Shown piece by piece: positions 33,970 to 37,277 of a stretch of DNA of 38,285 nucleotides; the stretch's first letter is position 1; the number at the start of each line of letters is the position of its first letter. A program made the position numbers and the translations under genes. A model generated the notes under the pieces. It made no database searches. It was not told the DNA's origin and saw nothing but the letters and a program-made list of their open reading frames with translations. Source of the DNA: an uncultured Clostridia bacterium (lineage in GTDB: Bacteria > Bacillota > Clostridia > Oscillospirales > Ruminococcaceae); assembly GCA_947628615.1 (NCBI GenBank), contig CANRAO010000016.1:1-38285 (forward strand), in the 5' to 3' direction.

Positions 33970-35448
33970 TTACAATGTTGTACGCTCAACAGCCTTTTCC
34001 CAGCCCGACAAAAGGGCAGTTCTCTTTGTTTCGGGAATATCGGGAGTGAATTTATAGTCGATCTTCTGATTGTTTTTTATATCATTCATACTCTTCCAGT
34101 AGCCTGATTTAAGCCCTGCAAGGTACGCACAGCCGAGAGCCGTTGTTTCTATACACATAGGGCGGAGAACTTCGCAGTCTGTTATATCGCTTTGAAACTG
34201 CATAAGAAAGTTATTTTCACAAGCTCCCCCGTCAACTTTAAGAGTGTTGATTTTTATACCCGAATCAGCTTCCATAACTTCAATAACTGCGTTTACTTGA
34301 TATGCAATTGCCTCAAGAGCCGAGCGAGCTATATGCTCTTTAGTTGTACCTCTTGAAAGTCCGCAAAGAACTCCTCTTGCATCGGAATTCCAGTAAGGAG
34401 CGCCGAGACCCACAAATGCAGGAACAAAATAAACCCCATTTGTGTCAGGAACAGACAGTGCTAAAGGCTCGCTTTCTGCGGCAGAGTCAATAATTTTAAT
34501 TCCGTCACGAAGCCATTGAACAGCCGCTCCTGCTGCAAAAACAGAACCCTCAGACGCATAGGCTATTTTTCCGTCCACGCTCCATGCAATAGTTGTCAGA
34601 AGTCCGTTTTGAGAGATAACAGGCTCAGAGCCTGTGTTCATAAGCAGAAATGCCCCTGTGCCGTATGTACATTTGAAGTCGCCTTTATTAAAACACGTCT
34701 GTCCGAAAAGCGACGCCTGCTGGTCGCCTGCCACACCGCAGATTTTAATTTTACCTTTTCCTATTAATTTTGTATAACCGTAGTCATCGCTTGATTCACA
34801 AACCTTCGGCAGCATACTTTTCGGAATACCAAGAAGTTTTAAAATGTCATCGTCCCATTCAAGAGTATTTATATTAAACAGCATTGTTCTTGACGCGTTT
34901 GAATAATCTGTGGCGTGAACTCTTCCTTCGGTGAGTTTCCATATAATATAGCTGTCAACTGTTCCGAACAAAAGTCTGCCGCTTTTAGCTCTCTCACGAA
35001 CTCCGGAAACATTGTCAAGAATCCACTTTATCTTTGTTGCAGAAAAATAAGGGTCGATTATAAGACCTGTTTTTTCCTTTATCATTTCTGAATATCCGTT
35101 TTTTACAAGCTCTTTGCAGTAGTCTGATGTTCTTCTGCACTGCCATACAATGGCATTATATACAGGTTCACCTGTTTCTTTATCCCAAATAATCGTAGTT
35201 TCACGCTGGTTGGTTATGCCAATTGATGAAATATCGCCTGCATCAAGATTTTTGCTCAAAAGGACCTCTCTTGCAGCGGTAAGCAGAGATGACCAAATAT
35301 CATTTGGATTATGTTCAACATATCCGTTTTCTTTAAAAATCTGGGGGAATTCCTTCTTTTTTTGAGCGACAATTTCACCGAATTTGTTAAATAATATTGC
35401 ACGAGATGATGTAGTGCCCTGATCAAGGGCTAAAATATATTTTTTCAT
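33970..35448 (-). CDS. glpK: Glycerol kinase
   Basis: A 492-residue FGGY-family kinase that phosphorylates glycerol to sn-glycerol 3-phosphate with ATP. The N-terminus has YILALDQGTTSSRAILFNKFG, the substrate region has NQRETT and WQCRRT, and the ATP region has LKVDGGACENNFLMQFQSD. ATG 35448 was chosen because AAAGGA lies 9 nt upstream; the frame continues upstream without a site. No glpF, glpD or PTS phosphorylation context is nearby. The upstream region has an inverted pair ATTTTGCA...TGCAAAAAT that could be an operator. Next to the amidase, it could also feed glycerol phosphate to wall polymer synthesis. Confidence 0.95.
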   Translation of the reverse strand: MKKYILALDQGTTSSRAILFNKFGEIVAQKKKEFPQIFKENGYVEHNPNDIWSSLLTAAREVLLSKNLDAGDISSIGITNQRETTIIWDKETGEPVYNAIVWQCRRTSDYCKELVKNGYSEMIKEKTGLIIDPYFSATKIKWILDNVSGVRERAKSGRLLFGTVDSYIIWKLTEGRVHATDYSNASRTMLFNINTLEWDDDILKLLGIPKSMLPKVCESSDDYGYTKLIGKGKIKICGVAGDQQASLFGQTCFNKGDFKCTYGTGAFLLMNTGSEPVISQNGLLTTIAWSVDGKIAYASEGSVFAAGAAVQWLRDGIKIIDSAAESEPLALSVPDTNGVYFVPAFVGLGAPYWNSDARGVLCGLSRGTTKEHIARSALEAIAYQVNAVIEVMEADSGIKINTLKVDGGACENNFLMQFQSDITDCEVLRPMCIETTALGCAYLAGLKSGYWKSMNDIKNNQKIDYKFTPDIPETKRTALLSGWEKAVERTTL

Positions 35449-35553: not shown

Positions 35554-35730
35554 CTTTGAGGTTATTATATCGAAATTAGTGTGAAACGAAGTTTCACAGT
35601 TTTGCGGAGCAAAACCAAAGGCGTTAGCCTTAAATTAAGATACAATGTTCTCAAAGCGGAAATCTTTGATTTACGGCAATGCAAAAAGCATTGCAAGGCT
35701 TTCACAAGAAAGCCCTTTGAGGTTATTATA
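35554..35730. repeat. Hairpin-array element with 16-bp direct repeats
   Basis: CTTTGAGGTTATTATA occurs at 35554-35569 and 35715-35730. Between the copies are six different hairpins in a row: 35581-35587/35591-35597 (7 bp, loop GAA), 35599-35605/35609-35615 (7 bp, loop GGA), 35618-35622/35627-35631 (5 bp), 35660-35664/35668-35672 (5 bp, loop TTT), 35676-35682/35688-35694 (7 bp, loop of five A) and 35697-35703/35708-35714 (7 bp, loop ACAA). The last ends one base before the second direct repeat. The GTTTTGC/GCAAAAC stem is also found in the element at 56-270. No coding capacity. Confidence 0.75.
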
Positions 35731-35785
35731 CCATATAAATCGACAAAAGGAAATATTAAAATTCAATAAAAAATAGCGATTGCTC

Positions 35786-35832
35786 TTGACATTTAGCTCA
35801 AAAGGGTATACAATGGTTACAAATCGGTTACA
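35786..35832 (+). promoter_or_regulatory. Promoter with downstream WalR-like box
   Basis: TTGACA (35786-35791), 17-bp spacer, TACAAT (35809-35814). GTTACA-AATCG-GTTACA at 35816-35832 has the complement TGTAAC-CGATT-TGTAAC, an exact fit to the WalR consensus TGTWAH-N5-TGTWAH. Its position just after the -10 box would suit repression of this promoter. Activation of a weaker promoter further down is also possible, since 116 bp remain before the start codon. Confidence 0.6.
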
Positions 35833-35948: not shown

Positions 35949-37277
35949 ATGAAAAGCAAAAGAATTAAGAGGCTTACTGCATTAGTTCTTTCGTTTTTGG
36001 CAGTAGTTTCTGTGTTTACAATAAACAATTATGACAGCGGAGGAATACAAATATCCGCTGCACCTACATATGAGGATTATCAAAGGCAAATCGCCGATTT
36101 GGAAAGTCAGGAGAGAGAGCTTGATAAACAGATCGCAAAAAACGCAGAAAATCTTGCTGATGAACAAGCAAAGCAGGAGGCTTTAAGCAAGAAGATCTCG
36201 ACAATTGAAAACAAGATCTCCACATTTGAAAAATACAGTAAAGAGCTTGAGAAGGATCTAGCGGAAACAGACGCAAAAATCAGAGAAACTCAAGCCAATA
36301 TGGAGCAGAAAGAAAAAGAAATTAAGAACGGCATTGCGGATTTTAAGTCAAGGCTTAGGGCAATGTATGTCTCGGGGGCTGAGTCTTATACACAGGTATT
36401 GCTTGAATCGGAAGACTTTTACGATATTCTCATGCGGTTTGAGCTTGTAAAGAGAGTAGCAAAACATGACAACGATACGATAGACAAGCTCCTTGAGCTG
36501 AAGAAGCAGTATGAGAATGAACAAAAGAAGTATCAAGGGCAAAAGAAGCAGATGGAAGAAACTGCTCAGAAATACGCAAAACAGCTTTCCAATTTATCGA
36601 AGGAGCAGTCGAATCTTGAAGCATTGAAGGCTGAAAGCGAGGCTAATGCGGCAAACATTCAAAGTCAGAATGAGGAGCTAAACGATCAGAGAAGTCAGGT
36701 TTTCAGCAAGAAGGCGCAGGCTGAATACAACGCAACCACCACGACTACGACAACTACTACTCAGGCTGCTACAACTTACATACCAAGACATAACAATTAT
36801 TCAAATAACGGTTTGTCCGGGAATTCAGGAAGCAATAATTATTCAAACAACGGATATTCAACTAACAGCGGAAATTCATCAAGCAATTCTGGCAGTTCAA
36901 GCGGCGGATACTCAGGAGACATTGGAACGGTAATTTCTTATGCCAAGAGTATGGTAGGCGGTTCATATGTCTGGGGCGGTTCAAGCTACCGTGCGACAGA
37001 CTGTTCGGGTCTTGTAATGCTTTCTTATGCACAGGTAGGAATTTCACTTCCGCATAATGCCGCTGCTCAGGCAGGGTACGGCAAATCAGTAAGCTATGAC
37101 AGTATGCAGCCTGGAGACTTGATTTTCTTTGGAGCTAGCATCTATCATGTTGCAATGTATATCGGTGACGGTATGATGGTACACGCTGAGAACTCAAGCA
37201 CAGGAATAGTTATTTCCTATGTATCTTCGTTCTCGCAGTACAATCCGATTTCCGCAATCAAAAGAATCATATATTAA
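35949..37277 (+). CDS. CwlO/PcsB-like NlpC/P60 peptidoglycan hydrolase
   Basis: A 442-residue secreted hydrolase. A signal peptide (1-38, cleavage near ISAA) precedes a long coiled coil (about 40-265, heptad Lys/Glu/Gln), a run of nine Thr, a Ser/Asn/Gly-rich linker, and an NlpC/P60 domain (about 325-442). The catalytic residues are Cys352 (TDCSGLV), His400 (YHVAMYIGDG) and His412. The coiled coil plus NlpC/P60 is the CwlO/PcsB layout, where FtsEX activates a D,L-endopeptidase for wall growth. AAGGGAAAAG precedes the ATG. The WalR-like box in its promoter region fits, since CwlO-type genes are classic WalRK targets. Confidence 0.92.
   Translation: MKSKRIKRLTALVLSFLAVVSVFTINNYDSGGIQISAAPTYEDYQRQIADLESQERELDKQIAKNAENLADEQAKQEALSKKISTIENKISTFEKYSKELEKDLAETDAKIRETQANMEQKEKEIKNGIADFKSRLRAMYVSGAESYTQVLLESEDFYDILMRFELVKRVAKHDNDTIDKLLELKKQYENEQKKYQGQKKQMEETAQKYAKQLSNLSKEQSNLEALKAESEANAANIQSQNEELNDQRSQVFSKKAQAEYNATTTTTTTTTQAATTYIPRHNNYSNNGLSGNSGSNNYSNNGYSTNSGNSSSNSGSSSGGYSGDIGTVISYAKSMVGGSYVWGGSSYRATDCSGLVMLSYAQVGISLPHNAAAQAGYGKSVSYDSMQPGDLIFFGASIYHVAMYIGDGMMVHAENSSTGIVISYVSSFSQYNPISAIKRIIY

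Follow-up and report, generated by a model that had tools for sequence, protein, structure and literature searches.

A Hairpin-Array Repeat of Clostridia and Its Probable Insertion at Extended -10 Promoter Boxes

INTRODUCTION

Small hairpin-forming repeats are common in bacteria, but for most of them it is unclear what they target and what moves them. Palindrome-associated elements of the IS200/IS605 type are short and noncoding and contain parts that fold back on themselves.

Among the described systems, the BOX elements of Streptococcus pneumoniae are assembled from boxA, boxB, and boxC modules, their mobilization has been proposed to depend on ISSpn2-like terminal inverted repeats, and the abstract of the paper calls them parasitic (PMC3049150). 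In Correia elements, 26-bp inverted repeats mark the ends (PMC3049150). The repeat described here shares with BOX its small, modular, interspersed character, its potential to form stem-loop RNA, and a variable number of internal modules, but insertion at a -10 box does not feature in the available part of the BOX description, the comparison being one of descriptions rather than of sequences (PMC3049150). Like Correia elements and promoter-bearing miniature inverted-repeat transposable elements (MITEs), it is short and noncoding, lies near genes, and carries or affects sigma-70-like promoters (PMC10969869); those elements, however, are described as bringing their own promoters (PMC10969869), whereas here the host -10 box is the probable target and the two ends show no inverted match. 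Hairpin repeats arranged in alternating domains and in clusters are also a feature of REP/BIME sequences and their RAYT transposases (PMC2817692, PMC3733652), but the domains here are linked by GTT, while those of REP/BIME are palindromes tagged with GTAG or CGTC (PMC3733652). The GTT-bearing boxes resemble integron attC sites by eye only. A limited search of open-access PMC full text (including PMC2267715) gave, in the portions available, no description of this repeat or of any bacterial repeat targeted to -10 boxes. The repeat probably works like other small nonautonomous repeats such as BOX and Correia, with an unusually exact target, and is not assigned to any of these families.

RESULTS

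The locus lies in a 38,285-nucleotide stretch of DNA from an uncultured Clostridia bacterium (contig CANRAO010000016.1), referred to below as the window. The sequence CTTTGAGGTTATTATA is a 16-bp direct repeat with exactly two copies in the window, at 35554-35569 and 35715-35730, and six hairpins are packed between them. These are hairpin 1 (35580-35598; stem of 8 bp, loop of 3), hairpin 2 (35599-35615; 7 bp, loop of 3), hairpin 3 (35618-35631; 5 bp, loop of 4), hairpin 4 (35658-35675; core AAATC-TTT-GATTT, containing the recurrent AAATCTTTGATTT), hairpin 5 (35676-35694; 7 bp, loop of 5), and hairpin 6 (35697-35714; 7 bp, loop of 4). Under a strict rule (perfect stem of ≥6 bp, loop of 3 to 8) there are 105 hairpins in the 38 kb, and 4 or 5 per 140 bp are found solely in intervals over the array. 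The six hairpins between exact repeats that an initial annotation had reported are thus present where it placed them, in the densest 140 bp of the window. That annotation also proposed folding both strands, and both fold better than their shuffled counterparts, with z-scores of -6.1 for the plus strand and -8.1 for the minus strand and none of 200 shuffles equally good on either.

In the predicted fold, hairpins 1 to 3 lie inside one long outer stem, overlooked in the initial annotation, in which CTCAAAG (35650-35656) pairs with the CTTTGAG of the left repeat. The CTTTGAG of the right repeat (35715-35721) may be an alternative partner of CTCAAAG and would then enclose hairpins 4 to 6. This second pairing is absent from the minimum-energy fold of the window, where CTCAAAG is paired with the left arm, and we infer a second three-armed domain because isolated right domains of relatives fold in this way. 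The junction at 35714/35715 that had drawn attention before is exact in position and is the point where the last hairpin abuts the pairing arm CTTTGAG. For the same 16-bp repeat, a reading as a plain target duplication does not hold: CTTTGAG is a pairing arm, and in the family only up to ~9 bp (ATTATANCA) is target-like.

The window copy can be described in terms of two domains and three boxes. The left box (35554..35572) consists of the arm CTTTGAG, the linker GTT, and then ATTATATCG, the left copy of the -10-like target; its CTTTGAGG part is missing at the left end of several other arrays and is retained here. The left domain, ATT...AAT (35564..35646), comprises the outer stem and hairpins 1 to 3 and follows the same plan in other genomes. 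It is joined through the conserved box AATGTTCTC (35644..35652; AAT, GTT linker, CTC) to the right domain, CTC...GAG (35650..35721), which holds hairpins 4 to 6 and the putative outer stem CTCAAAG/CTTTGAG. The right box GAGGTTATTATACCA occupies 35719..35733 on the minus strand, and within it TGGTATAAT (35725-35733, minus-strand reading) is an extended -10 box that faces the gene on the left, as was also seen by comparison with empty-site orthologues.

That gene encodes an FGGY-family carbohydrate kinase (33970..35448, minus strand; likely ATG at 35448 by eye), called glpK in the initial annotation, and the distance from the -10 box to its ATG is ~277 nt by hand count. By position and orientation, the array would be part of the promoter and 5' leader of this kinase gene. 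The initial annotation had described the array as upstream of the cell-wall hydrolase gene on the other side, which is an NlpC/P60 peptidoglycan hydrolase gene (35949..37277, plus strand). We reject a role as a regulatory element of the hydrolase gene, which is a neighbor only: the array is placed and oriented for the divergent kinase gene, and the hydrolase gene has its own promoter-like sequence, TTGACA-N17-TACAAT, outside the array (35786..35814, plus strand).

Two other repeats lie near the left end of the window. At 56-270 there is a separate hairpin-array family beside a tRNA 3' end that has been duplicated (the anticodon looks like TGT); an 81% relative is found in G007, and G005 has two tandem copies that overlap. 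At 380-690 there is a ~130-bp direct repeat, in two copies, between a tRNA gene and an open reading frame (ORF) at 699. The initial annotation had grouped 56-270 with the present array. We reject this link, since the 56-270 family lacks the conserved boxes (by eye). Overall, the initial annotation was right that the array is a real element, and it is revised as to the gene served, the nature of the 16-bp repeat, and the link to 56-270.

By sequence comparison, the array is one copy of a dispersed noncoding repeat that is patchily distributed in Clostridia, many of which live in the gut, the class being assigned by the names of the matches. The unit is modular: fold-back domains of the form ATT...AAT and CTC...GAG are joined by GTT linkers, with three small hairpins in each domain of the window copy. 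Many long forms have several, often three, hairpins per stem, and short forms have one. The tandem array L188 displays the plan as repeats of ATT-hairpin-AAT, GTT, CTC-hairpin-GAG, GTT, in which the last box alone is extended to ATTATANCA. The gap between boxes is 35 to 38 nt in 116 of 149 units (loci from L103 on), and in a separate set the right-domain gap is 35 to 39 nt in 166 of 204. Because the searches set the boxes in advance, box conservation is partly by construction; the -35 spacing, the agreement of the variable base, gene orientation, and domain length described here are independent of it.

The stems are conserved as pairs, which the initial annotation had proposed as a test in relatives. 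Mean folding z-scores are -4.2 for 75 right domains (near-duplicates removed) and -3.3 for 61 left domains. Among 55 distinct right domains of the 41-nt class, the one class to which the following values apply, 95% of pair cells are Watson-Crick compared with 74% in shuffles, double changes occur in 11 of 14 pairs (shuffle maximum, 9), and there are 15 further pair types (shuffle maximum, 12). All of these values are above those of all 300 shuffles, which ignore relatedness. The raw count for left domains favors the minus strand over the plus strand (44 versus 16), and an RNA-strand bias in the stems is not significant against dinucleotide shuffles (P values of 0.23 and 0.07), which supports neither side. 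The A' box (TATGATACAAT) was considered as a general second promoter and rejected because many copies have GGAACAAT, GATTCAAT, or GTTTCAAT at that place (by eye).

Other genomes carry the array as well. With the whole intergenic region as the query, 13 of 41 genomes (the window's own and relatives) were matched, several through the flanks only; with the element alone, matches were found in 6 of 15 genomes of the genus, including the window's own. G005, G010, G002, and G004 have further copies elsewhere in their genomes. Among 295 genomes of the order, 50 have the right box with ≤1 mismatch, some single matches of which may be chance, and none has the reversed pattern. A pattern of two boxes, which misses units with a right-domain gap of >65, the window's own unit among them, matched at least 119 stretches in a named genome collection, and the names given for 80 of them are clostridial or unspecific. 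The same pattern was found in 11 of 391 genomes of a class sample (2 from the window's order and 9 from other orders, 8 families in total) and in 1 of 398 genomes of a phylum sample; since this sole match falls inside the window's order, the count outside the class is 0 of 383. A viral contig collection gave no matches to the exact two-box pattern; long-form and diverged units would escape this pattern. Exact right boxes number from 1 to 45 per genome across 19 distinct genomes (21 entries, two genomes having been entered twice), with the maximum in Faecalispora jeddahensis and none for the reversed-pattern control in any of the 21 entries. Many of the genomes examined are drafts.

A second dispersed repeat, which contains CAAGGTGGCGAGCCGCCAC, was seen at L042, in the right flank of the G005:C5 array. 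It matches dozens of places in the genus, often ~100 bp apart, with many in G000 (e.g., G000:C3:121870-122276).

The element spreads within genomes, because some copies at different loci of one genome are 97 to 100% identical while copies at one orthologous site are 57 to 58% identical. The highest identity is among units at three loci of G002 (C54, C10, and C17; 97 to 100%), and units at two loci of G004 are 97 to 98% identical; the low value is for G002C10 compared with G004C7, which occupy one orthologous site in two species. The C12 and C32 copies of G002 are 53 to 69% like the near-identical G002 group and are older copies or members of other subfamilies.

Empty-site alleles, whose lack the initial annotation had set beforehand as a possible refutation, exist in relatives, in five orthologous site groups within the genus. 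The first is the window's kinase site, which is empty in G005, G009, G014, and G002; the second is a site occupied in G005 (C5) and G004 (C33); the third and fourth are the G002C12 and G002C54 sites; and the fifth is the site that G002C10 and G004C7 share. Among the genus genomes, the G002C32 site has no clear empty orthologue and the G002C17 site has none. Copy number also differs at one place: the window's kinase-hydrolase locus has one unit in G000 and two tandem units in G007. Two further alleles were observed: in G010, the orthologous kinase site has a solo box and no array (L016, G010:C13), and in G014, the site of G010C1 has a truncated right end (L293, G014:C3) and is not an empty site. 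Both are possible traces of array loss.

On the minus strand, the right box has the sequence TGNTATAAT of an extended -10 box. A TTGACA-like hexamer (≥5 of 6 positions) stands at a spacer of 17 in 25 of 132 right flanks, compared with 1 of 129 control windows placed 100 bp further on, and spacers of any other length between 8 and 25 have 0 to 2 such hexamers each. The remaining 107 of the 132 flanks have no strong -35 hexamer at 17 bp. (The -35 counts and the 51-unit and 44-unit counts of the variable base below use loci from L083 on, and the -35 set omits units with another unit ≤150 bp after them.) By simple ORF calls on loci from L103 on, 101 clusters have a left ORF; in 79 of these the left gene is transcribed away from the array, and in 22 it points at the array. 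The right gene reads rightward in 56 of 103.

Of 53 records with complete boxes, 51 single units were retained. The variable base N of ATTATANCA is equal at the two ends of 37 of them and unequal in 14. The expected number of agreements is 14.6, and none of 2,000 shuffles reached the observed one; in the same 51 units, the variable positions 9 to 13 next to N have no significant excess of agreement. In a differently filtered set, N is equal in 39 of 44. In F. jeddahensis, N differs from site to site and is equal in 13 of 17 neighboring box pairs of one array (hand count). The agreement of N at both ends, together with the position at an extended -10 box, fits duplication of a target of ≤9 bp. 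This statistical signal points to target site duplication, which would be a property of the family that the window copy does not display. That copy is an unclean example: its two N bases differ (T on the left, C on the right), its -35 at 17 bp matches TTGACA at 2 of 6 positions (hand count), and it has a full box at the left end.

Beyond the shared ATTATANCA, the left end mostly has TAA followed by variable sequence, and the right end has GGTT before ATTATANCA (AACC on the other strand) in all 51 single units, with only one of the four bases free in the search pattern. Terminal inverted repeats, a feature of MITEs, were looked for in these 51 units, and no inverted match between the ends was found. 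Because the other three bases were fixed by the pattern, this comparison shows the absence of an inverted match and not the exact terminus.

DISCUSSION

We conclude, with a probability of roughly 0.7, that the array belongs to a noncoding, nonautonomous mobile repeat that inserts at an extended -10 box, duplicates its target, and supplies a hairpin leader to the gene on its left. A repeat of ~100 to 165 bp, made of two fold-back domains with GTT linkers, would insert into host promoters at TGNTATAAT, facing one way with respect to the promoter, and up to ~9 bp of the box (ATTATANCA on the plus strand of the element) would be duplicated. At the right end, the host -35 would remain beside a complete -10 box, so that the start of transcription should be preserved there. 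The left gene's message would then begin with a chain of hairpins, linked by AAC in the RNA, that may affect its stability or expression. Copies would grow or shrink as tandem units through the repeated boxes.

One possible alternative is a cassette moved by site-specific recombination of the tyrosine-recombinase or integron-like kind, in which the element's own box recombines with a similar host box and no target is duplicated. The box-like sequence at both ends, tandem growth, and the solo box at the G010 orthologous kinase site are consistent with this, and so are two insertions, G002C12 and G002C54, whose left side looks like the element and whose right side looks like the host; in insertions of the G002C54 type, the left N looks element derived and the right N host derived. 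However, simple recombination does not predict that N is equal at both ends in 37 of 51 units although N varies by site within a genome, and we consider this alternative unlikely.

We find it quite improbable that the arrays are inherited regulatory leader RNAs of particular genes, similar to riboswitches or attenuators, and not mobile at all. Structured compensatory stems and a location in 5' leaders are what such an RNA would have, but the target genes are unrelated, as judged from the window's FGGY kinase gene and six of 23 left genes checked by Pfam. The six are of the RuvC, Ppx/GppA, RadA-like ATPase (our own reading), cytidylate kinase, response regulator, and polysaccharide flippase types. 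In addition, orthologous sites are empty in relatives, some copies are far closer to copies in the same genome than to the copy at the orthologous site, and no Rfam family falls on the arrays. An Rfam search of the window at gathering scores returned three tRNAs only, and a search of six array loci at an E value of ≤1 returned two matches, neither on an array. Separately, the BsrG type I toxin-antitoxin RNA family matches L217:2361-2588 (minus strand) weakly, scoring 33.7 bits where the gathering score is 55.

A hairpin element of the REP/BIME or IS200/IS605 type (for the latter, see PMC7290912) that depends on a Y1 (HUH) transposase for its movement is a very improbable explanation. The element is hairpin based, nonautonomous, intergenic, and tandem, as that explanation would have it, and the window's genome has one Y1 gene. 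However, Y1_Tnp genes were detected in only 7 of the 21 genome entries, which are 7 of 19 distinct carriers, one of the seven by short stretches only. None was found in the other 12, including the 45-copy genome, G160, G047, and G116, which sets the repeat apart from both the RAYT-associated and the IS200/IS605-type elements, and we therefore reject the Y1 transposase as the general mover. Y1-moved elements of either kind are not known to duplicate their targets, whereas the present family has a target-duplication signal. Finally, although intergenic AT-rich DNA often holds stems, a fortuitous group of terminators or slippage products with no family behind it is refuted by relatives in other genomes, many of which have the same boxes and spacing, and by the folding-energy z-scores.

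A trans-acting enzyme would presumably move the nonautonomous repeat that we favor. In 9 of 11 long inter-box gaps that were examined (ORFs read in 8), there were ordinary genes or no gene and nothing element-like by eye. We suggest tentatively that an integration machinery recognizes the extended -10 box itself, or the promoter complex once it is open, duplicates the box, and installs a hairpin leader while leaving the promoter unbroken. By analogy, and just as tentatively, a -10-recognizing element of this kind might be a bacterial equivalent of the retroelements that integrate at transcription start sites.

The target of this family, the host extended -10 box, can be read almost to the base. 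If confirmed, these insertions would amount to natural, repeated experiments in which structured leaders are fitted to unrelated genes of Clostridia, and they would point to an enzyme that finds promoters.
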